DNA from: an uncultured Parvularcula sp.
Lineage (GTDB): Bacteria; Pseudomonadota; Alphaproteobacteria; Caulobacterales; Parvularculaceae
Assembly (NCBI GenBank): GCA_937919225.1
Contig: CALFRH010000230.1
Location: forward strand, 1 to 33,795
Length of the DNA: 33,795 nucleotides
Direction of reading: 5' to 3'
Part shown: in pieces, positions 7,439 through 21,898 of the stretch
Position numbering within the stretch: position 1 is the stretch's first letter
Layout of the letters: each line of letters opens with the position of its first letter
Position numbers and translations under genes: made by a program
Notes under the pieces: model-generated
What the model was told of the DNA's origin: nothing
What the model saw: only the letters and a program-made list of their open reading frames with translations
Database searches by the model: none

Positions 7439-9409
7439 TTACTCCACCGCGTCAAACCCCAGCAGCTTTTGCCCCTCGCCCACCGTGTCGCCGACGGCGA
7501 AATAAAGATCTGTCACCACCCCCTTGGCGGGCGCTTTGACCAGATGCTCCATCTTCATGGCTTCTAGGGTCATCACCACGGCACCCGCCTCGACTTCCGC
7601 GCCAGCCTCCACCATAAGACCAGTGACCGTGGCTGGCATTGGCGAGAGAAGCGAGGCCGCATCCCCCCCGCCCGAGGCGGCGACCGCCCCAGGGTCCGTC
7701 AACTCGATGGAAATGGGGCCTGTCCGCCCACGACCCACCAAACGACCGTCGGCTAACGGAACTATTCCCTCTACAGACCAGCGTTGGCCGGCCGCCTGGG
7801 CGGTCGCAGAATCGCCGTTCAACGTCACATGGCTAAGATCGACCGCAGCATCCCCCACGGTGCCCCACCAATGATCTCCTTCACCGTTGAGAGAGATGGG
7901 TGTCGGGCCCTCTAGCCCTGCCATAAAAGCGGTGACCGATGCGGGGGCATTGAGGCGCCAGGCCCCAATGGCTTGCGCAAGAGAGGACCGGGGCCCACGC
8001 GCCGCTAAATGAGCGTTCAGTACCATAAGGGCCACCTCCTCAGGCGCGGGCGGTACATCATCAGCGATCGCCAGCTTGTCAGTGAGGAACTTTGTGGTCA
8101 CGCCGCCTTCGCGGAAGTCTTCATCGGTCAAAATCCGATGAAGGAAGGTTTGATTTGTCTTCAGCGGCAAGAGCTGCGTCCCCGCCACCAAATTGGCGAG
8201 GCGCGATAGCGCTGCCCCCCGCGTATCCCCATGGGCGATGAGTTTCGCCACCATGGGATCATAATAGGGAGTCACCGCCGCCCCCGGTGCAATGCCCGTA
8301 TCCACACGGGCCCCTTCCCCATTGAACGGCCCATCAAAATGAGTGACGTCGCCCACACTGGGTCGATAGTCCTGAGCCGGGTCTTCTGCATAAAGCCGAA
8401 CTTCTACCGCATGCCCATCGCAATAGATTTGGTCTTGGTCGAGGGGGAGAGGCTCCCCCGCTGCCACCCGCAACTGCCATTCGACGAGGTCAAGGCCCGT
8501 CACCTCTTCGGTCACCGGGTGCTCCACCTGAAGGCGGGTATTCATCTCCATGAAGTAGACATTGTCGCCCCCATCGTAGAGAAACTCCACCGTGCCCGCG
8601 CCAACATACCCCACGGCCTTCGCCGCCTCGACACCAGCGGAGAGAAGCCTCTCTCGCACAGATGCAGGAAGGTTTGGCGCCGGCGCCTCCTCCACCACCT
8701 TTTGGTACCGTCTTTGAACGGAACAATCCCGCTCATAAAGGTGAACCACATTGCCATGGGTATCGCCAAAGACCTGCACCTCCACATGCCGGGGGCCGGT
8801 GATGAACTTCTCCACCAGGAACCGGTCATCCCCAAAGGCAGACAGCGCCTCGCGCTTAGCCGACGTCAACGCTTCTTCCAACGCCCCTTCGGCTTCAACA
8901 ATCCGCATGCCTTTGCCGCCGCCACCCGCAGCCGCCTTGAGAAGAACAGGATAGCCAATGCGCGCCGCCTCCGCTTTGAAAGTGTCTACAGACTGATCTT
9001 CACCCTGATAGCCCGGCGATAAAGGCACGCCGGCTTTTTCCATCAAGTCTTTAGCGAGGGACTTTGACCCCATGACCTCAATCGTTTCAGGGCGCGGCCC
9101 GATAAAGACCATCCCCGCCGCCGCACAAGCGCGGGCGAAACCGGCGTTTTCGGACAAAAAGCCATAACCCGGATGAATAGCCTGCGCCCCAGCCCTTTTC
9201 GCGACCTCAATGATGGTCTCGCCTTTAAGGTAACTCTCCGTGGCTGGTGCGGGACCAATAGCATAGGCCTCGTCCGCCACTTTCACGTGCATGGCGTCCG
9301 CATCGGCGTCGGAAAATACGGCGACGGTCTTCACCCCCATGGCGCGCGCTGTACGGATGATCCGGACCGCGATCTCGCCCCGGTTGGCGATAAGAATTTT
9401 GTCAAACAT
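7439..9409 (-). CDS. mccA: Methylcrotonyl-CoA carboxylase alpha subunit (biotin carboxylase plus biotin carrier)
   Basis: A 656-residue biotin-dependent carboxylase subunit. The biotin carboxylase domain (1-about 445) has IANRGEIAVRI at 7-17, the ATP-grasp glycine loop GGGGKGM at 162-168, and MEMNTRLQVEHPVTE at 287-301. The C-terminal biotinyl domain carries EAMKM with biotinylated Lys619. It carboxylates its own biotin with ATP and bicarbonate and passes the CO2 to the beta subunit. The MCC assignment over propionyl- or acetyl-CoA carboxylase rests on the MccB-type partner nearby and on ivd and bkd in the same region. Its ATG overlaps the stop of the small membrane protein gene by eight bases, which suggests coupling. 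Confidence 0.9.
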   Translation of the reverse strand: MFDKILIANRGEIAVRIIRTARAMGVKTVAVFSDADADAMHVKVADEAYAIGPAPATESYLKGETIIEVAKRAGAQAIHPGYGFLSENAGFARACAAAGMVFIGPRPETIEVMGSKSLAKDLMEKAGVPLSPGYQGEDQSVDTFKAEAARIGYPVLLKAAAGGGGKGMRIVEAEGALEEALTSAKREALSAFGDDRFLVEKFITGPRHVEVQVFGDTHGNVVHLYERDCSVQRRYQKVVEEAPAPNLPASVRERLLSAGVEAAKAVGYVGAGTVEFLYDGGDNVYFMEMNTRLQVEHPVTEEVTGLDLVEWQLRVAAGEPLPLDQDQIYCDGHAVEVRLYAEDPAQDYRPSVGDVTHFDGPFNGEGARVDTGIAPGAAVTPYYDPMVAKLIAHGDTRGAALSRLANLVAGTQLLPLKTNQTFLHRILTDEDFREGGVTTKFLTDKLAIADDVPPAPEEVALMVLNAHLAARGPRSSLAQAIGAWRLNAPASVTAFMAGLEGPTPISLNGEGDHWWGTVGDAAVDLSHVTLNGDSATAQAAGQRWSVEGIVPLADGRLVGRGRTGPISIELTDPGAVAASGGGDAASLLSPMPATVTGLMVEAGAEVEAGAVVMTLEAMKMEHLVKAPAKGVVTDLYFAVGDTVGEGQKLLGFDAVE

Positions 9410-9878
9410 GGCTTACAATCTCCGGCGCGGCGGTTTTCTGCCGAGCCCACCAAAAAACGGCACCACCAGTACCGCCAGCAAGGACATATATGAGCGTTGC
9501 AGGGACGAGGTAATCAAAATCCATCACACTGGTCGCCGATAAGGTGAGGTGTAGGCTGCCGAGTGCCATCGGCACCACTCCTACAAACATACCCGATAGA
9601 ATAGCCGTCCGTAAGGGAAGGACCGGGCGTCGGTGAAGCACTCCCCAAATGGCCAATGTGGGCAACACCCCATAAGCCAACGCGAACACGATCAACCCCA
9701 TATAAACGCCGAACACCCATTGTAGGAAACGCACCAAACTGAAATCATCCACGGGGCCTGACCCAAACTCCCCCATTACCATGGGAAGGCCTTCGGTGAG
9801 GAAAAGCACGGTTCCTCCCGCCAAGACCGCGAGGCAATAGGGGATAAGCCTCCCTCGGATGAAGGTCTTGATATTCAT
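9402..9878 (-). CDS. Small four-helix membrane protein between mccB and mccA
   Basis: A 158-residue hydrophobic protein with probable membrane helices at about 11-28, 52-80 (long), 90-112 and 124-146, and a short hydrophilic end. I recognise no family or catalytic motif. It starts three bases after the mccB stop and its stop overlaps the mccA start by eight bases, so it is almost certainly translated as part of the mcc operon. A transport or regulatory role for leucine or isovalerate use is only a guess from position. The tight overlaps on both sides and sensible hydrophobic pattern argue that it is a real gene. Confidence 0.72.
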   Translation of the reverse strand: MNIKTFIRGRLIPYCLAVLAGGTVLFLTEGLPMVMGEFGSGPVDDFSLVRFLQWVFGVYMGLIVFALAYGVLPTLAIWGVLHRRPVLPLRTAILSGMFVGVVPMALGSLHLTLSATSVMDFDYLVPATLIYVLAGGTGGAVFWWARQKTAAPEIVSHV

Positions 9879-9881
9879 GCC

Positions 9882-11489
9882 CTACATCCTGAAAACGCCG
9901 AAGCGGGTGGGTTCAATAGCTTTGTTCAAACTGGCGGACAGGGCCAACGCGACGACGCTGCGCGTGTCGGCCGGATCAATGATGCCATCATCCCAAAGCC
10001 GCGCGGTGGAGTAATAGGGGGAGCCTTTTTCATCATAGTCCGCCTCAATCGGCGCCTTAAAGGCAGCGCGTTCTTCTTCTGTCCACGTATCGCCTTTTTT
10101 GGCCATCGCATCCTCCCGCACGGTGGCAAGCACGTTAGCCGCAGCCTCTCCCCCCATGACGGAGATGCGGGCGTTGGGCCACATGAACAAAAAACGGGGG
10201 GAATAAGCCCTTCCGCACATGCCGTAATTCCCGGCGCCATAGGAGCCGCCAACAATCACCGTGATCTTCGGCACATTCGCGCACGAGACCGCCGTCACCA
10301 TCTTGGCACCATGCTTGGCAATACCGCCATGCTCAGCGGCTTGCCCCACCATGAAGCCCGTAATATTCTGCAAAAAGAGGAGAGGAATGTTCCGCTGACA
10401 GCATAACTCAATAAAGTGCGCGCCCTTTTGCGCACTCTCCGCAAACAAGACGCCATTATTGCCAAGGATACCCACGGGCATGCCATGGAGATGCGCAAAT
10501 CCGCATACTAAAGTTGTGCCATACCGCGCCTTGAACTCATCGAACTCGGAGCCATCGACAAGGCGTGCAATAATCTCCTTCACATCAAAGGGTTTCCGCA
10601 AATCATGTTCGGCGATCCCGCGGAGGTCCTCCGTAGAAAGAACAGGTGCCGTGACAGGCCGCATCGTGACCGTTTCTGGTTTCCGCCAGTTCAAGTTCCG
10701 CACGCACCGGCGAGCTAAAGACAGGGCGTGTTCATCATTCTCCGCCAAATGGTCCGAAACACCGGAGATACGCGTGTGTACGTCACCACCCCCCAAATCC
10801 TCAGCCGAAACCACTTCGCCCGTGGCGGCTTTGACAAGGGGGGGACCGGCAAGGAAGATCGTTCCCTGCTCTTTCACAATAATCGTCTCGTCAGACATGG
10901 CCGGCACGTAAGCGCCGCCTGCGGTACAGGAGCCATGAACCACGGAGATCTGGGGAATGCCCCCCGCGCTCATTCGCGCCTGATTATAGAATATGCGGCC
11001 AAAATCATCCTTATCGGGAAAGACCTCATCCTGCATCGGCAAGAAGGCGCCCCCAGATTCCACAAGATAAATGCACGGTAAGTGATTTTCTTCGGCAATC
11101 TCTTGAGCGCGCAGGTGCTTTTTCACCGTCATCGGATGATAAGTGCCCCCCTTTACCGTTGGGTCATTGGCAAGCACCACGCACTCAACGCCCTCCACCG
11201 TACCAACACCGGCAACGGCCCCCGCCGCAGCAATATCGCCCGAATACATGCCCCAGGCGGCTAATTGTCCAACCTCTAAAAAAGGGGTTCCCGGATCAAG
11301 CAATCGTTCAATGCGCTCGCGCGGGAGGAGTTTCCCTCGGGCCTTATGTCGTTCGGCATAGGCGGCGCCCCCTCCTTGGCGCACCAGATCGACCCTTTCC
11401 CGCAGAAGGGAAAGACTCTTATTCATTTCGTCTAACCGGGCTTTAAAAGCTGGATCGTTGGGGCTCAGCTGACTGGATAAAGTTGGCAT
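9882..11489 (-). CDS. mccB: Methylcrotonyl-CoA carboxylase beta subunit (carboxyltransferase)
   Basis: A 535-residue carboxyltransferase that moves CO2 from carboxybiotin to 3-methylcrotonyl-CoA, giving 3-methylglutaconyl-CoA in leucine breakdown. It has both crotonase-fold halves. The N-terminal half includes [36 protein letters not shown] and [17 protein letters not shown]. The C-terminal half has NITGFMVG, the [16 protein letters not shown] segment and [11 protein letters not shown]. The [10 protein letters not shown] and [12 protein letters not shown] patterns are those of MCC beta rather than propionyl-CoA carboxylase beta. I chose ATG 11489 ([13 protein letters not shown]) over a TTG at 11525; GAGAG lies about ten bases upstream. 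It is the first gene of the mccB-membrane protein-mccA operon. Confidence 0.92.
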
Positions 11490-11598
11490 AAAGACTTGGC
11501 TCTCTCGAGGATCACTGGCGCGCAATTTTCTGCTCCGCTTAGCCCGGATCGAAGGCCAAGGGCAATCGAAATCAGTGAGGTCGGCGAGGCGCCTGTTA

Positions 11599-11615
11599 CC
11601 TTTTGTGACAAAAGG
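11599..11615. promoter_or_regulatory. Perfect 17-bp palindrome, candidate operator between mccB and DUF1800 gene
   Basis: CCTTTTGT (11599-11606), G, ACAAAAGG (11608-11615) is a perfect dyad around a single central base. It lies in the 201-base gap between the divergent starts of mccB and the DUF1800 gene. TTGTCA on the minus strand within it could serve as a -35 box. Neither the position nor the symmetry suits a terminator, because transcripts leave in both directions. Confidence 0.5.
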
Positions 11616-11690
11616 GGACCTTTTCAGACTTGCTTATTCAAAGCGCGAGACGTCAGATAGCAGACGGTAGCGGCATGAAGGAGATAGGGA

Positions 11691-13070
11691 GTGGCATCGG
11701 TCAATGCATTCATCGCCGCTAACCGATTTGGTCTTGGCGCTCGGCCAGGTGACCTATCCACCATCGACAAAGACCCCCAACACTGGCTCGAGAGCCAAAT
11801 CGCCAGGGGCGCGACCATACCGTCCCGTTTAAAGCAATATTCCGGGACTAAACAGCGCTTAGCCGCGATCACCAATGCCCGGCGCGAAAGCAATCGTCAG
11901 GCGGGAAAGATCGCTCGATCGATAGCAATGGAGCAATCCGCAGGCGAAATAATAGATCGTTTTACAACTCGTTTGGAAACAGACACCCCTTTCACCGAAA
12001 GGCTCGTTTCCTTTTGGGCAAATCATTTCTCCATATCTCGCAATAAGCAATATCTTCCCGCGCTTACGCCCGCCTACGAACGTGAAGCGATTAGACCCCA
12101 CATCTTTGGATCGTTCGGCGACCTGCTAGTGGCCGCAGTGACGCATCCTGCCATGCTCATCTATCTTGATAATGTACAGTCCATCGGCCCCAATTCTTTC
12201 TTTGGAAAAAGGCGAGACCGGACAATAAATGAGAACCTTGCACGGGAGGTCCTTGAACTTCACACGCTCGGGGTAGACGGCGGTTATACCCAAGAGGATA
12301 TAGAAGAATTCGCGAAAGCCCTGAGCGGTTGGGCCTATGCGGGCCTTGGCCGTGTTGAAGACAATGCCCGCATACAACGATCCTTTGGTGGCGCCATCGC
12401 AACATCTGTGGGGGAAGCAACTTTTTATGCCCCCCTTCATGAGCCAGGCCCCAAGCGTGTACTGGGGCGGCGCTATCCTGAAGATGGGGCCGGGGAGACC
12501 CTAGCGATCCTAAAGGATTTGGCGCAACACCCCTCAACCGCCACGTTTATAGCCACAAAGCTGGCAAGGCACTTCATTGCGGACGATCCGCCCCAAACCG
12601 TTGTTCGAGCACTCGCAAGGCGTTACCGCGAAACAGATGGACATTTGGCGTCTATATACCGAACACTGATTGGGTTGACAGAGGTTTGGGCAACGCCGCT
12701 ACCCAAAGTAAAGCCGCCTCAAGATTTTATTGTGAGTGGACTGCGGGCCCTTGGGATTATTCGAATGCGGGGCAGTTGGTTTCGCGACCCCCTCACCCAA
12801 ATGGGGCACTCCCCCTTTAACGCGCCCTCCCCCCAAGGGTGGCCGGATGTAGCGGAAGCATGGATTAGCCCCGGAAGCCTTATGCGGCGGGTTGAGTGGG
12901 CGCGGTCGATTGTGGACCAGGTGGATACAATGCCAAATCCTCAAACCCTCCTTGAAGACACAATTGGCCCTGTGGCCACCAAAGAAACCAGGACGCTGGT
13001 TCGGGGGGCGCCCTCGGGCGCTGAAGCGGTCGGCTTTGTCTTAGCCTCCATTGAACATCAGCGGAGATAG
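11691..13070 (+). CDS. DUF1800 family protein
   Basis: A 459-residue member of the DUF1800 family, recognised by the N-terminal NRFGLGARPGDL (11-22), FWANHFSIS (109-117) and the conserved segment NENLAREVLELHTLG followed by GGYTQEDIEEFAKALSGW (180-214). The biochemical role of the family is unknown. Its genes typically sit next to a DUF1501 gene, as here, where the partner begins three bases downstream. The GTG start at 11691 is supported by AAGGAG seven bases upstream. I see no clear signal peptide, although the partner has one. The gene is transcribed away from the mcc operon across a shared promoter region with a strong palindrome. Confidence 0.88.
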   Translation: MASVNAFIAANRFGLGARPGDLSTIDKDPQHWLESQIARGATIPSRLKQYSGTKQRLAAITNARRESNRQAGKIARSIAMEQSAGEIIDRFTTRLETDTPFTERLVSFWANHFSISRNKQYLPALTPAYEREAIRPHIFGSFGDLLVAAVTHPAMLIYLDNVQSIGPNSFFGKRRDRTINENLAREVLELHTLGVDGGYTQEDIEEFAKALSGWAYAGLGRVEDNARIQRSFGGAIATSVGEATFYAPLHEPGPKRVLGRRYPEDGAGETLAILKDLAQHPSTATFIATKLARHFIADDPPQTVVRALARRYRETDGHLASIYRTLIGLTEVWATPLPKVKPPQDFIVSGLRALGIIRMRGSWFRDPLTQMGHSPFNAPSPQGWPDVAEAWISPGSLMRRVEWARSIVDQVDTMPNPQTLLEDTIGPVATKETRTLVRGAPSGAEAVGFVLASIEHQRR

Positions 13071-13073
13071 GTC

Positions 13074-14279
13074 ATGACCTCTTTCAACCGCCGTACATTT
13101 CTTCACCTTGGGGCTGGGTTCGGTGCCGCAACAACAGTTGCGCCGGGCCTTGTTTCAAGTCTGGCCCTAGCAAAACTGCCCACCGACCGTCGGTTTATCA
13201 TCATTCTCCAGCGTGGTGCCCAGGATGGACTCCACGCCCTTCCTCCCTATGGAGATGATAATTACCGGCGGTTAAGGCCGCGCTTGGCGATCCCAGGCCC
13301 GGGCAAAGAGGGCGGGGCCCTGCCCTTAAGCGGGCCGTTTGGCCTGCACCCCGCCCTCAAAACCTTTCACCGCCTCTTCGAAGAAGGCGATATGGCCGCT
13401 ATTCCCGCGATTGCCAGTCAATATCGTGAACGATCGCATTTCGATGGGCAGAATGTGCTGGAAAACGGGTCAGGCAAGCCCTTTGGCGCCGATGATGGGT
13501 GGCTTAACCGCGCCCTTTCCCTTATGCAGGACGGGGATGATGAACGCCTCGGTATTGCATTAGGGCATACCGTTCCCCTCATATTGCGGGGGGCGGCCGG
13601 TGTTCGTACCTGGGCACCCAGCACACTCCCATCCGTGGATGAGGATTTTCTCGGCCGTCTCCTCAACAGCTATGGCGAAGACGCTCTCTTTGCAGAAGCG
13701 TTGGCGGAGAGTATGAATCCCATTGTCAGTGATATGAGTATAAACCAGCGGGAAGCCCGGGCGGCCGCGCGGGGACAGGCACCAGTGATTACCGCTCGCG
13801 CTGCGGCTGAAGCCCTTCTCCTGGAGGATGGCCCCCGGATGGCTGTGATTGAGATGGGTGGGTGGGACACCCACTATGGGCAGGCAGGGCGACTGAATAG
13901 TCTGTTTACCGCTCTTGATGACACCGTTGATGTATTAAGCACAGATCTCGCCTCCGTATGGGATAAATGCTTGATCCTAACCTTGTCTGAGTTCGGACGA
14001 ACAGCCGCGGAGAACGGATCCCTCGGCACGGATCACGGCACCGGAGGAACGAGCTTTCTCCTCGGCGGGGCTGTTGCGGGCGGGCAAATTTTAGGGGAAT
14101 GGCCTGGCCTTGCGCCGAACGCCCTTTATCAGGGGCGCGATGTTGCCCCGGCCAACGCCCTTGAAGGCGTTCTCAAAGCCATTCTAATGGACCATCTGGG
14201 GGCCCCGCGCGATGGGGTAAATAGCATAGTCTTCCCCAACAGCGATGCTATTTGGCCGATGATGGGCCTACTGAAGTGA
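13074..14279 (+). CDS. DUF1501 family protein, Tat-exported
   Basis: A 401-residue DUF1501 protein of the alkaline-phosphatase/sulfatase-like fold. The start NRRTFLHLGAGFGAATTV (5-22) is a twin-arginine signal, so the folded protein should be exported to the periplasm. Conserved parts seen are RGAQDGLHALPPYGD, RSHFDGQNVLENG, MGGWDTHYGQ and LSEFGRTAAENGSLGTDHG, whose Asp and His residues are candidate metal ligands. Function of the family is unknown. GGAG seven bases before the ATG and the three-base gap to the DUF1800 gene show one transcript. ivd follows 90 bases later on the same strand and may belong to the same or a separate unit. Confidence 0.88.
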   Translation: MTSFNRRTFLHLGAGFGAATTVAPGLVSSLALAKLPTDRRFIIILQRGAQDGLHALPPYGDDNYRRLRPRLAIPGPGKEGGALPLSGPFGLHPALKTFHRLFEEGDMAAIPAIASQYRERSHFDGQNVLENGSGKPFGADDGWLNRALSLMQDGDDERLGIALGHTVPLILRGAAGVRTWAPSTLPSVDEDFLGRLLNSYGEDALFAEALAESMNPIVSDMSINQREARAAARGQAPVITARAAAEALLLEDGPRMAVIEMGGWDTHYGQAGRLNSLFTALDDTVDVLSTDLASVWDKCLILTLSEFGRTAAENGSLGTDHGTGGTSFLLGGAVAGGQILGEWPGLAPNALYQGRDVAPANALEGVLKAILMDHLGAPRDGVNSIVFPNSDAIWPMMGLLK

Positions 14280-14369: not shown

Positions 14370-15542
14370 ATGATCAGCAACGCCTTTGAAGGAATGAAGT
14401 TCGGCCTACCCGACGAGATTGAGGAGATGCGCACCTCCATCTCACGTTTTGTTGCTGATAGAATTGCACCCATCGCCGCTCAAACCGACGAGCAGAATGA
14501 CTTTCCAGCCCATCTCTGGAAAGAACTGGGGGAGATGGGTCTTTTAGGGATCACCGCCAGCGAGGACTATGGCGGCGCAGGATTGGGATATCTCGCCCAT
14601 ATTGTGGCCATGGAAGAAGTGTCCCGCGGGTCAGCCTCTATCGGCCTGTCCTACGGCGCCCACTCTAATCTTTGTGTGAACCAAATTAACCTCAATGGGA
14701 ACGACGTCCAAAAAGAGAAATATCTCCCTAAGCTGATCAGTGGGGACCATGTTGGCGCCCTGGCCATGTCTGAACCGGGCGCCGGATCCGACGTGGTCAG
14801 CATGCGTACCCGCGCCGAGAAGAAAGGTGATCGGTTCATCATCAATGGCAACAAGATGTGGATTACTAACGGACCTAATGCCGATACGCTGGTGGTCTAT
14901 GCGAAGACAGACCCCAATGCGGGACCCCGCGGGATCACCGCCTTCCTGATTGAAAAAGGTATGAGCGGGTTCTCCACCGCCCAAAAGCTCGACAAGCTCG
15001 GTATGCGGGGATCCAACACCTGCGAGTTGGTTTTCGAAGACTGCGAAGTCCCTGAGGAAAATGTTCTGGGCCAAGTGGGCGACGGTGTCCGGGTCCTGAT
15101 GAGTGGGCTTGACTACGAACGCGCCGTCCTTGCCGCCGGGCCGTGCGGCATCATGCAGGCCTGTATGGATGCGGTACTTCCTTATGTTCATGAACGGGAA
15201 CAGTTCGGCCAACCCATTGGCGAGTTCCAACTGGTCCAAGGCAAAGTCGCGGATATGTATACCACCATGAACGCGTCCAAGGCCTATGTTTACGCGGTGG
15301 GGGCCGCCTGCGACCGGGGAGAGACCACGCGGCAGGACGCGGCAGGCTGTATTCTTTACGCGGCAGAAAAGGCGACCCAGGTGGCCCTCGACGCTATCCA
15401 GCTCCTCGGCGGCAATGGCTATATCAACGAATATCCGACAGGACGCCTTTTGCGGGACGCAAAGCTCTACGAGATTGGCGCCGGTACGTCGGAAATTCGG
15501 CGCATGCTGATCGGGCGCGAGCTGTTCAAAGCAACGTCCTAG
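14370..15542 (+). CDS. ivd: Isovaleryl-CoA dehydrogenase
   Basis: A 390-residue FAD-dependent acyl-CoA dehydrogenase that oxidises isovaleryl-CoA to 3-methylcrotonyl-CoA, the substrate of the nearby MCC. Family signatures seen are [10 protein letters not shown] (133-142), [16 protein letters not shown], and C-terminal [12 protein letters not shown] and [15 protein letters not shown]. Glu250 in [14 protein letters not shown] corresponds to the catalytic base found at this unusual place in isovaleryl-CoA dehydrogenases, which separates it from short- and medium-chain enzymes. The ATG at 14370 follows TGGAG. Electrons would leave through electron-transfer flavoprotein, whose genes are not in the window. 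It is followed by a 449-base gap full of repeats. Confidence 0.93.
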
Positions 15543-15942: not shown

Positions 15943-15970
15943 AAAAGGCGGGCCGCTGGGCCCGCCTTTT
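15943..15970 (-). terminator. Intrinsic terminator of the TonB-dependent receptor gene
   Basis: A perfect 12-bp stem, AAAAGGCGGGCC (15943-15954) and GGCCCGCCTTTT (15959-15970), with a four-base loop. On the minus strand it ends in six T residues and lies 21 bases after the receptor stop codon. This is a textbook Rho-independent terminator. The A-run on the other side could also let it work for plus-strand transcripts from the ivd side. Confidence 0.92.
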
Positions 15971-19525: not shown

Positions 19526-20914
19526 CTAAAGATGCAATGCATGTCCCAGCGCCATCAGCGCGGCTTCTTGAACCGCCTCAGATTTAGTGGGGTGACCATG
19601 AATCGTCCCCGCCAAATCCTGCAGTCGGGCCCCCATTTCGAGGGCGAGGGCAAATTGAGCGGAGAGCTCTGAGACCCCCGCCCCGACGGCTGATATACCT
19701 AAAATGAGGGATGTGTCCGCCTGAGCCACCACGCGGACAAAACCCGCCTCATCCTCCATCGTCATGGAGCGGCCGTTCGCAAGGAAGGGGAATTGTCCTG
19801 TCACCACCTCATACCCCTGATCTCTTGCGGCATCCTCGCTGAGGCCCACTTGGACGAGCTCCGGGTCCGTAAAACAGATCTCGGGAATCGCCCGCTTGTC
19901 CCACTCCCGCCGGTCACCAGCGATGATCTCCGCCACCATCTCGCCTTGCGCCATCGCACGGTGAGCAAGCATCGGGTTCCCCGTGACATCCCCAATGGCG
20001 TAAACCCCGCTCATGGAAGTTCGGCAACGGCTGTTCACCGCGATAAACGGGCCGTCCATCGCGAGGCCCAATTCCTCAAGGCCCCACCCTTGGGTCCTTG
20101 GCCGGCGCCCGACAGTAACAAGCACCTTGTCCGCCGCCACACGATCAGTCTCCCCTGTGCGTTCCACCGTGAGGTGACCGCGACCAAAGCCCTTCGCCAT
20201 GGTTTGTAAGCGGATATCCACCCCAAGGGATTTCAATCGTTTAGCAACTGGATCCGTCAGCACACGATTATAGGTTGGCAAAATGGCATCGCTGGCTTCG
20301 ATGATAGTAACCTGCGCCCCCATCTTGGCAAAAGCCGTCCCAAGCTCCAGCCCAATGTAACCGCCCCCCACCACCGCGAGGGAGGACGGCACGTCTGTCA
20401 ATGACAACGCTTCGGTTGACGACAGAACATCATCGCCAAAGGGAAGCCCCGGGAGAGGAACAGATTCCGATCCCGTCGCAAGAACGACATAGTCTGCCCG
20501 AATATCGGTGCGTCCCTCAGGGCCCATTACCTTTGCGGTCTTTCCATCGATCATCTCCGCCCAACCTTGGACTGTGCGCACTTTCGCTTTTTTGAGGAGT
20601 CCGCCCACTCCCTGGTTAAGCCGGCGCACAATACCATCTTTCCACTGAATGGTTTTCGCTAAATCCAGCGTGGGTGATGGCGTGGTAATGCCATTAGCGC
20701 TCCCCTTTTCCATCTGCCCGAGGCGATGGAACTCGTCCGCCACATGGATAAGCGCTTTGGACGGAATACACCCTACGTTCAGGCAGCAGCCCCCAAGGGG
20801 TCCCTCCTCCACCAACACCGTCTCTAATCCCAGCTGACCCGCTCTGATCGCCGCCACATAGCCGCCGGGACCGCCACCAATGATGAGAAGTTGAGTTTTA
20901 ATTGAATCTGCCAT
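19526..20914 (-). CDS. lpd: Dihydrolipoyl dehydrogenase (E3)
   Basis: A 462-residue FAD disulfide oxidoreductase that reoxidises the dihydrolipoyl group of 2-oxoacid dehydrogenases with NAD+. It shows the FAD-binding GGGPGGYVAA at 13-22, the redox disulfide Cys44-Cys49 in GGCCLNVGCIPSK, the NAD-binding GGGYIGLELG, the second FAD motif YAIGDVTGNPMLAHRA and the C-terminal HPTKSE with catalytic His and Glu. An extra Cys43 replaces the usual Thr or Val just before the disulfide. Its closeness to bkdA1-bkdA2-bkdB implies it serves the branched-chain complex. It starts 27 bases after the EVE-domain gene on the same strand, so the two probably share a transcript. Confidence 0.94.
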   Translation of the reverse strand: MADSIKTQLLIIGGGPGGYVAAIRAGQLGLETVLVEEGPLGGCCLNVGCIPSKALIHVADEFHRLGQMEKGSANGITTPSPTLDLAKTIQWKDGIVRRLNQGVGGLLKKAKVRTVQGWAEMIDGKTAKVMGPEGRTDIRADYVVLATGSESVPLPGLPFGDDVLSSTEALSLTDVPSSLAVVGGGYIGLELGTAFAKMGAQVTIIEASDAILPTYNRVLTDPVAKRLKSLGVDIRLQTMAKGFGRGHLTVERTGETDRVAADKVLVTVGRRPRTQGWGLEELGLAMDGPFIAVNSRCRTSMSGVYAIGDVTGNPMLAHRAMAQGEMVAEIIAGDRREWDKRAIPEICFTDPELVQVGLSEDAARDQGYEVVTGQFPFLANGRSMTMEDEAGFVRVVAQADTSLILGISAVGAGVSELSAQFALALEMGARLQDLAGTIHGHPTKSEAVQEAALMALGHALHL

Positions 20915-20941: not shown

Positions 20942-21364
20942 CTAGGGTTTGACCCCCGCCATCTTGCACACATATTTCCATTCCGCCGCCGTCACAGGCT
21001 GTACGGATAATCTTGAATTATTGACGAGCACCATGTCCTGTAGCGCGGGTTCCGCTTTAATTTCCGACAGGGTGACAGGGGTCTTCACCGGGCCAACGGC
21101 CTCCACCGTCACACACTCCCACGGGGAGCCTGCCTCGGCGGTGGGGTCGGGCTTTACCTCATCAATAATCTTCACGATGCCCACCACGGCCCGTTCCGTC
21201 TGCGAATGATAAAAGAAGGCTTTGTCCCCCACCTTCATCTCTCGCATGAAATTCCGAGCCTGGTAATTGCGGACCCCGTCCCACATCTCGCCCTCTTTGC
21301 CCTTGGCCACCTGCTGGTCCCAGGACCAAGTGGAGGGTTCGGATTTCATCAACCAATACGCCAT
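20942..21364 (-). CDS. EVE domain-containing protein
   Basis: A 140-residue single-domain EVE protein (PUA-like fold, similar to human THYN1). Characteristic parts are MAYWLMKSEP at the start, WDGVRNYQARNFMREMKVGD (28-47), FFYHSQTERAVVGI (50-63) and WECVTVEAV. EVE domains bind modified bases in DNA or RNA. Their role in housekeeping bacterial contexts is not settled. I set the start at ATG 21364, preceded by GGGAG with seven-base spacing; the open frame upstream to 21847 has no family resemblance and overlaps another gene. It lies immediately upstream of lpd in one probable operon. Confidence 0.92.
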   Translation of the reverse strand: MAYWLMKSEPSTWSWDQQVAKGKEGEMWDGVRNYQARNFMREMKVGDKAFFYHSQTERAVVGIVKIIDEVKPDPTAEAGSPWECVTVEAVGPVKTPVTLSEIKAEPALQDMVLVNNSRLSVQPVTAAEWKYVCKMAGVKP

Positions 21365-21544
21365 TGCAGCACTCCCTTTCGCCTTCGCGCCATGTCGGCG
21401 CGCACCATAGGGGGCGCCGGGAAGCCGGTCCAACCGCTGATACGCTTTGCGACAAAGAGGGACCCTTTGAGACCCTGCCGGCATTGCCCTGCCACATGAG
21501 GGCGCTGGGATGCCCCTATCGAAAGTAACGAAAAGAGGGTTGTT

Positions 21545-21898
21545 ATGCGTTTGAAACTCTTGGGACTTGCCACCATCATGGCGACGGTAGCCGCTTGTGC
21601 AGGGGCGCCGCCCGCCCACGCGGGCACCTGGCGATTGGACCCGCGACTGTGTCCCGATTTGCGGGAGGACATCCGTGACGCCCGGGTCACCTACAGCCGC
21701 CGAGATGCGCGGGAGGACCGGCGGGACCGACGCTATGTGAACTGCCCTGCGCGGGCGTGGGTCTATGTGCCGGGCCGATATGAGCGTGCGAAAGCCCGGC
21801 CCGCCGTCCCGGTCTACTCGTCCATTTATGTGAATAAGAAAGGTCACTATTACGGTATTCGCGGCTCGCGGCGCGTGCGGTTAACGGTGGTATACTAA
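21545..21898 (+). CDS. Small basic secreted protein of unknown function
   Basis: A 117-residue protein. The N-terminus MRLKLLGLATIMATVAAC is a signal sequence, either a lipoprotein signal with Cys18 or a cleavable one ending at AHA26. The mature part is very rich in Arg and Tyr, with two Cys (36 and 67) that could pair in the periplasm. An RRDAREDRRDRR stretch (52-63) is followed by YVPGRYERAKARP. I recognise no family with certainty; it resembles small Arg-rich periplasmic proteins. AGAGGG lies six bases before the ATG, a good ribosome site. It stands alone on the plus strand between the minus-strand bkd and EVE-lpd units, diverging from the EVE gene. Confidence 0.72.
   Translation: MRLKLLGLATIMATVAACAGAPPAHAGTWRLDPRLCPDLREDIRDARVTYSRRDAREDRRDRRYVNCPARAWVYVPGRYERAKARPAVPVYSSIYVNKKGHYYGIRGSRRVRLTVVY

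Follow-up and report, generated by a model that had tools for sequence, protein, structure and literature searches.

The window analysed here is a 33,795-nucleotide stretch from an uncultured Parvularcula sp. (assembly GCA_937919225.1, contig CALFRH010000230.1), in which two transcription units diverge from a 201-bp spacer. On the minus strand lies mccB (9882..11489), encoding a carboxyltransferase-like subunit (Carboxyl_trans) and standing first in its unit; its start is likely the ATG at 11489, the longest ORF beginning at 11525. Between mccB and the gene for the biotin carboxylase subunit there is a 158-aa ORF (9402-9878) without a Pfam family. On the plus strand, a DUF1800 gene (11691..13070) starts with a GTG at 11691, preceded by AAGGAG, and is followed by a DUF1501 gene (13074..14279), whose product has the N-terminus MTSFNRRTFLHLGAGFGAATT, Tat-signal-like by eye, and by an acyl-CoA dehydrogenase gene (14370..15542). 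This last gene is 68-84% identical to genes standing divergent from mccB in eight relatives, and we infer that it is probably an isovaleryl-CoA dehydrogenase gene (ivd). A strong GC-rich inverted repeat, AAAAGGCGGGCCGCTGGGCCCGCCTTTT (15943-15970), terminator-like by eye, is placed between the acyl-CoA dehydrogenase and TonB-dependent receptor genes.

The palindrome and its conservation

As the initial annotation had stated, the spacer between mccB and the DUF1800 gene contains a perfect 17-bp dyad, CCTTTTGTGACAAAAGG (11599-11615), whose 8-bp arms flank a single central G. When the 201-bp spacer was resampled under a first-order Markov model, perfect 8-bp arms turned up with a frequency of 0.005 for gaps of 0-1 and of 0.036 for gaps of 0-12; thus, the dyad is noteworthy and mildly unusual, but not decisive alone. 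The whole window holds five palindromes with perfect 8-bp arms and a gap of 0-1, against 1.2 expected, the remaining four being located within the gene calls used in that count. The 17-mer is the sole copy in the window at up to three mismatches, and a match was also obtained in 10 of 100 shuffles. The dyad is followed by a third arm, CCTTTT (11619-11624), giving the arrangement CCTTTT-GTGAC-AAAAGG-GGA-CCTTTT, and a pair of 12-nt direct repeats, ACCTTTTGTGAC and ACCTTTTCAGAC, lies at 11598-11609 and 11618-11629; they are 20 bp apart and 83% identical.

The relatives compared comprise 61 genomes (own, genus, family and order). Conservation of the dyad, which was to decide whether the palindrome is an operator, turned out to be largely negative: at up to two mismatches it is absent from eight of the nine congeners, with one match in G004, and in the orthologous spacer of the congener G007 just five of the eight pairs are kept. 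Scanning the window's own genome (G000) with the dyad gave 35 places at up to three mismatches and 6 at up to two, compared with 20 and 3, respectively, for the reversed pattern. This assembly amounts to 5.4 Mb, is split into 695 contigs and shows 5.7% contamination, its nine congeners having 2.9-3.4 Mb; it contains three mccB-type matches, and part of it may be foreign.

A mccB-type match (E 1e-100) is found in 59 of the 61 genomes and a DUF1800 match (E 1e-40) in 22, and among 106 DUF1800 loci, inspected with 1500 nt of flank for most genomes and up to 6000 for named records, mccB stands divergent from DUF1800 just in the window and in G007, where it faces a DUF1800-DUF1501-acyl-CoA dehydrogenase unit. 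The DUF1800 proteins of the two are 52-53% identical and the mccB products 70-72%. Their spacers have a well-kept block in common (GGCGCCTGTTACCTTTTGTGACAAAAGGGGACCTTTTCAGACTTGCT in the window, GGCGCCTGATACGTTTCGGGACAGAACGGAACGCTTTCAGACTTGCT in G007), in which the dyad is kept at 12 of 17 positions and the remainder, by our own count, at 26 of 30.

At eight of the 28 other mccB loci (G001, G003, G004, G005, G009, G014, G017 and G020), an ivd-like gene, 68-84% identical to that of the window, is divergent from mccB within 1500 nt, with neither DUF1800 nor DUF1501 present. Taking these eight loci into account, the comparison suggests that the DUF pair, together with its box (described below), was inserted between mccB and the ivd-like gene.

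A direct-repeat box in the window and upstream of EF-hand genes

The element that is kept begins six bases before the dyad. It is a 17-bp direct repeat, CTGTTACCTTTTGTGAC (W1; 11593..11609, plus strand), made up of the half-site TGTTAC and, ten bp on, TGTGAC; the dyad has 11 bp in common with it and extends 6 bp past it. W1 points at the DUF1800 gene, 81 nt from its GTG. It continues into an extended element (11593..11629, plus strand), CTGTTAC followed by CTTTTGTGAC, AAAAGGGGAC and CTTTTCAGAC, in which AC recurs every ten bp and of which 28 of 37 positions are identical in G007. Immediately downstream, what may be the core promoter for the DUF1800 operon can be read by eye on the plus strand at 11630..11658, with TTGCTT (11630-11635), 17 nt and TCAGAT (11653-11658), the TTGCT being kept in G007; a consensus scan of 11400-11800 returned no sigma-70-type promoter and no terminator-like site. 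The likely target of W1 is the DUF1800-DUF1501-acyl-CoA-dehydrogenase operon, with DUF1800 as its likely first gene.

W1 is present in two of the 10 congeners, exactly the two having the mccB/DUF1800 gene order. Where the DUF1800 promoter is located elsewhere (G003, G005 and G009, aligned), no clear box is found, the scores being 2.5, 12.5 and 5.1; that of 12.5, in G005, corresponds to a weak look-alike with a spacing similar to that of W1.

A first degenerate pattern was derived from the pair of direct repeats present in W1 and in its G007 counterpart. With zero mismatches it occurs at three places in the 61 genomes: W1, the G007 site and an unforeseen site in the window, W2 (21442-21473 for this pattern). 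At up to two mismatches there are 24 matches against 37 for the reversed control, and the weaker matches are therefore taken as chance. Within the window, W1 and W2 are the sole matches at up to three mismatches, and none of 100 shuffles gave two. A 33-bp pattern to which W2 had been added, run at up to three mismatches on 398 genomes of the order, matched W1, the G007 site and W2 at zero mismatches and one further place at three, the reversed control giving two matches.

The W2 box, CTGATACGCTTTGCGAC (21437..21453, plus strand), lies 10 kb from W1 and 91 nt from the ATG of a gene (21545..21898, plus strand) for a small arginine-rich protein of 117 aa without a Pfam family and with a signal-like N-terminus, which is its likely target. 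Its presence speaks against the earlier suggestion that the regulon may be confined, within the window, to the dyad site. The extended element at W2 (21437..21473, plus strand) is identical to that of W1 at 29 of 37 positions, the best chance match to the 37-bp W1 among 300 resampled windows being 25. Divergent from the small protein gene is an EVE-domain gene (20942..21364, minus strand), with a gene for a pyridine-nucleotide-disulphide oxidoreductase, lpd-like (19526..20914, minus strand), downstream of it. The EVE ORF of 301 aa (20942-21847) is over-long, with the EVE domain at residues 163-296; its start is likely at about 21364, which leaves a divergent spacer of 180 bp containing W2.

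Across the three elements (W1, W2 and G007), autocorrelation has peaks of 0.42 at 10 bp (column-shuffle P 0.005) and 0.61 at 20 bp (a value reached in 0 of 20,000 column shuffles), both lags having been picked once the repeats were known. Their extended consensus is [CTGWTAC][SYTTYGNGAC][ARANRGRRAC][SYTTYSAGAC], with AC recurring each ten bp. EVE relatives occur in 24 of the 61 genomes; 24 loci were examined, and three (G000, G004 and G007) have the core of the box at EVE. In G007 it reads CCGATACAATTTGAGAC and in G004 CTGACACAATTCGTGAC, in both cases between EVE and a small protein that resembles, by eye, the 117-aa protein of the window. The fourth congener with EVE, G006, has no box there.

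Outside the window, the box precedes a gene for an EF-hand protein with a signal-like N-terminus in all 10 genus genomes, always in the same orientation. EF-hand relatives are found in 39 of the 61 genomes, and 30 loci were scanned, the gene position being approximate for the several loci that end at contig ends. A forward matrix, built solely from the five mccB/EVE-region sites and applied to both strands of the 500 nt upstream, scored 14.5-20.5 at eight of nine same-genus loci, all eight in the same orientation, 8.0 at the ninth (G006) and at most 12.3 at all 21 other loci; among 600 shuffles the 99% level was 13.0 and the maximum 17.4. In G006 the match had begun well inside the EF-hand gene, so that the box, 127 nt ahead of the ATG, fell beyond the 500 nt scanned; in G008, whose locus was read separately, the box is present. 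These two boxes were read with matrices already including other EF-hand boxes. In the reverse test, a matrix made solely from the 10 EF-hand boxes ranked W2 (19.5) and W1 (19.2) highest among about 67,500 positions of the window, with 13.6 for the third; in 100 resampled windows the maxima averaged 13.2, the largest being 19.3. All these matrices were built on few, related sequences.

The 15 aligned boxes have the majority sequence CYGWTACANTTYGNGAC, in which the half-site YGWTAC is followed, ten bp on, by YGNGAC. AC is invariant at positions 6-7 and 16-17, and the second half-site ends in GAC in 14 boxes and in CAC in one. All 15 are oriented towards the gene that they precede (EF-hand, DUF1800 or small protein) and end about 80-127 nt, 13 of them about 80-105 nt, before its start codon; where a gene has several in-frame starts, one was selected by eye. 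From N-termini read by eye, we infer that the proteins of the box-bearing genes are exported. Of the eight pairs of the dyad, two to six are retained in the 14 aligned sites other than W1 (the 10 EF-hand sites keep 2-5, the two remaining EVE-region sites 3-4). Downstream of these other copies, complementary bases occur somewhat more often than in random sequence (P 0.0004), and the box may have a weak inverted component, although this is not the conserved feature. The perfect symmetry at W1, and at this copy alone, is most plausibly a by-product of half-sites that overlap.

The core of the box, the left 17 bp common to the sites, was relaxed to admit the EVE-region boxes of G007 and G004 and searched exactly in the 10 genus genomes, with 16 matches against 13 for the reversed control and hence no excess across the genomes. 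Nine of these matches lie within long ORFs, and the other seven are sites of the W1, EVE or EF-hand type judged intergenic; this division rests on gene starts placed through homology and ribosome sites, mechanical ORFs covering six of the seven. Two of the seven were new, each between a divergent tRNA-Met and the EF-hand gene, in G000 (contig C529) and in G004. One core match on contig C227, scoring as high as real boxes, was discarded, being inside what appears by eye to be a phage structural gene. At the loci of G000, G004, G007 and G006 (L247, L248, L318 and L319), the divergent tRNA-Met adjoins the EF-hand promoter and no regulator stands behind the EF-hand gene; the tRNA may mark the place to which the gene was moved.

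Candidate regulator and competing readings

In six of the 10 genus genomes (G001, G002, G003, G005, G008 and G009), the EF-hand gene is directly followed, according to tblastn, by a gene of the ortholog group L288/L289/L290, encoding an OmpR-like response regulator, and this by a kinase-like ORF, that of G001 ending at the contig end. The linked regulators are 52-62% identical to the proteins of G000, G004 and G007. The G008 regulator contains Response_reg and Trans_reg_C, and its kinase HAMP, HisKA and HATPase_c; HisKA and HATPase_c were also found in the G005 kinase. In G000, G004 and G007 the regulator-kinase pair is encoded away from the EF-hand gene; that of the window's genome (L288) is on contig C215. 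G006 has no such regulator within 10 kb around its EF-hand gene, and none of 21 EF-hand loci outside the genus has an L288-type regulator in 1500-nt flanks.

Taking into account this linkage in six of 10 genomes, the L288-type regulator is the best candidate for the protein that binds the box. The naming of this type is also based on the ten-bp direct repeats that OmpR-family regulators often use, their half-sites starting 10 bp apart (PMC9275681). Three features of an OmpR/PhoB-type operator are found here: a direct period of about 10-11 bp, a fixed orientation with a similar distance to the start codon, and linkage, in the same six genomes, to a Response_reg and Trans_reg_C protein and a kinase. 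With a probability of roughly 0.7, 11593-11609 (extending to 11629) can be regarded as a putative site for an OmpR/PhoB-type response regulator with direct half-sites, the regulator most likely being of the L288 type. The regulator genes of G000, G004 and G007 have no good box of their own, and autoregulation in these three genomes was discarded, since the two weak upstream sites (L289, L290) appear to lie within upstream coding sequence; by eye, a yacG-like frame stands between these sites and the regulator gene.

It is unlikely, although conceivable, that the same box serves another OmpR/PhoB-class regulator or a different direct-repeat binder (e.g., AraC-like), the EF-hand-regulator-kinase linkage then reflecting co-regulation and not autoregulation. 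Trans_reg_C matches number 11 in G000, seven in G004 and nine in G007, and these genomes have further OmpR-family regulators in common, including a second OmpR-like group (L300, L302, L303) and a CzcR-like regulator at 92-93% identity. Moreover, an unlinked OmpR-like gene of G000 (L291, contig C224) has its own ten-bp repeat upstream, TTGTTACACGTTGTTAC (287-303), a TTGTTAC repeat about 50 nt before the start, and is followed by a kinase-like ORF. However, in six of the 10 genomes the gene beside the box-bearing EF-hand gene is matched better by the L288 type than by any other regulator in the comparison, a result that in G003 is obtained by 265 versus 263 bits, a difference between members of the same group.

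The proposal that a regulator of leucine or branched-chain catabolism binds the 17-bp palindrome and jointly controls mccB and the DUF1800 operon now appears improbable. In its favour is a perfect dyad in a divergent spacer whose flanking units include mccB and the probable ivd. W2, in turn, precedes EVE-lpd, whose lpd gene may supply the neighbouring bkd complex, and in W2 and G007 alone the symmetry, at 11 of 16 pairs, is above that of column shuffles (P 0.002). Against it stand the low symmetry of the EF-hand and remaining EVE-region sites given above and the best score of 7.8 within 400 nt upstream of mccB in seven other congeners; in addition, none of the window's eight best box matches lies before bkdA1 or the acyl-CoA dehydrogenase gene. 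Most copies of the box precede genes for exported-looking proteins, foremost the EF-hand gene, whose linkage to a two-component system in six of 10 congeners argues further against a leucine regulator. Some relatives have a different palindrome upstream of mccB, TATTGTCSGACAATA-like, which has no match in the window even with three mismatches allowed. The dyad is neither kept at orthologous sites nor repeated before branched-chain genes, as a palindromic operator of a branched-chain regulator would be. What endures from the first description is a probable regulatory site, in a divergent promoter, to which the dyad belongs; that the palindrome itself is the operator finds no support. Of the joint control once envisaged, the DUF1800 side agrees with the orientation and spacing of the box; control of mccB by W1 is possible and lacks independent support.

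In several relatives, a CTATTGTCGGACAATAG-like palindrome has been located upstream of mccB: L035 (G014), L023 (G017), L040 (G004), L036 (G016) and, in G026, C23:11989-12003. At the palindrome-bearing loci of G014, G017 and G004, an ivd-like gene is divergent from mccB. This palindrome is a better candidate than the window dyad for an operator of leucine catabolism.

A chance palindrome without function in a poorly constrained spacer has very little in its favour: the absence of the 17-mer, at up to two mismatches, from eight of nine congeners and a P of about 0.005-0.04 would suit it, but the overlapping box is kept in G007 and recurs at W2 and before the EF-hand genes of all 10 genomes. An RNA element or hairpin terminator can practically be dismissed, since CCTTTTG-TGA-CAAAAGG is able to pair but folds with an energy no different from that expected of its composition (z -0.07), there is no terminator-like site and the pairs are lost in the other copies.

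Proposed model and related systems

Under the response-regulator reading, the protein may be activated through an extracytoplasmic cation or an envelope signal, and, once phosphorylated, would bind tandem half-sites upstream of the promoter, read as YGWTAC-N4-YGNGAC with further AC-ending decamers at W1. It would then activate the EF-hand gene, with feedback on its own operon where the genes are linked, the small protein gene at 21545 and, in the two species with that insertion, the DUF1800-DUF1501-acyl-CoA-dehydrogenase operon. More tentatively, a two-component system common to the genus, whose first gene encodes an exported EF-hand protein, might control DUF1800-DUF1501 and an acyl-CoA dehydrogenase of leucine breakdown, and a cation or envelope signal could in this way set branched-chain catabolism wherever DUF1800-DUF1501 was inserted between mccB and ivd.

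An isolated palindrome is thereby turned into a testable link among a box, two sites in the window, an EF-hand core target in all 10 genus genomes and a candidate regulator. DUF1800 and DUF1501, a widespread pair that is little covered in the literature searched (both names in two papers, DUF1800 in four), gain a possible regulatory context. It has also to be kept in mind that a perfect dyad need not be the recognition unit; here a direct repeat, offset from the dyad by six bases, is the unit that is conserved.

Direct-repeat operators of the OmpR type are already a known kind, and no description of the box itself was found in the literature searched, a body from which most subscription journals are missing. 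The Escherichia coli OmpR consensus is TTTTACTTTTTGTAAC, and the box resembles it in layout and letters. OmpR (PRK09468) is also the best NCBIfam match of the G004 regulator, with 245.9 bits against a cut-off of 331, a score at which equivalog status was rejected; the nearest solved structure to the G000 regulator is BaeR.

Other published boxes were compared. The CenR box of Rhodobacter sphaeroides, TGA-N8-TGA (PMC9275681), belongs to the same general design of tandem direct half-sites with a period near one helical turn, placed upstream of promoters and recognised by a winged-helix family, but differs in half-site sequence, which here is YGWTAC and, at an offset of ten bp, YGNGAC. The ChvI box of Caulobacter, TTGC-N3-GCAA (PMC9731502), is absent, by eye, from the 15 boxes and was set aside. 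The UzcR box of Caulobacter, CATTAC-N6-TTAA as reported in the review PMC8963506, has a TAC-type first half-site, six bases to the second and mostly exported or membrane targets, as here; identity was rejected, as the second half-site ends in GAC (14/15) or CAC (1/15) and not in TTAA. On the sequences given in these sources, UzcR is the nearest of the three compared boxes, and none of them matches.

The LiuR and LiuQ regulons also control genes of branched-chain amino acid breakdown (PMC5343134). No such regulon pattern appears here, the box standing mostly before genes for exported-looking proteins, and a LiuR-type explanation appears unlikely. The arrangement around the EF-hand gene recalls CaBP-SigV of Caulobacter vibrioides, in which a periplasmic EF-hand protein is tied to a neighbouring envelope or stress regulator (PMC13171946); the regulator is there the ECF sigma factor SigV, whereas here a response regulator and a kinase stand behind the EF-hand gene. 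Judging by tag number, the Caulobacter EF-hand gene cabp (CCNA_02838) is only a few genes from uzcR/uzcS (CCNA_02842/02845), a possible hint that the pairing of an EF-hand protein with an OmpR-like regulator is wider than the genus.
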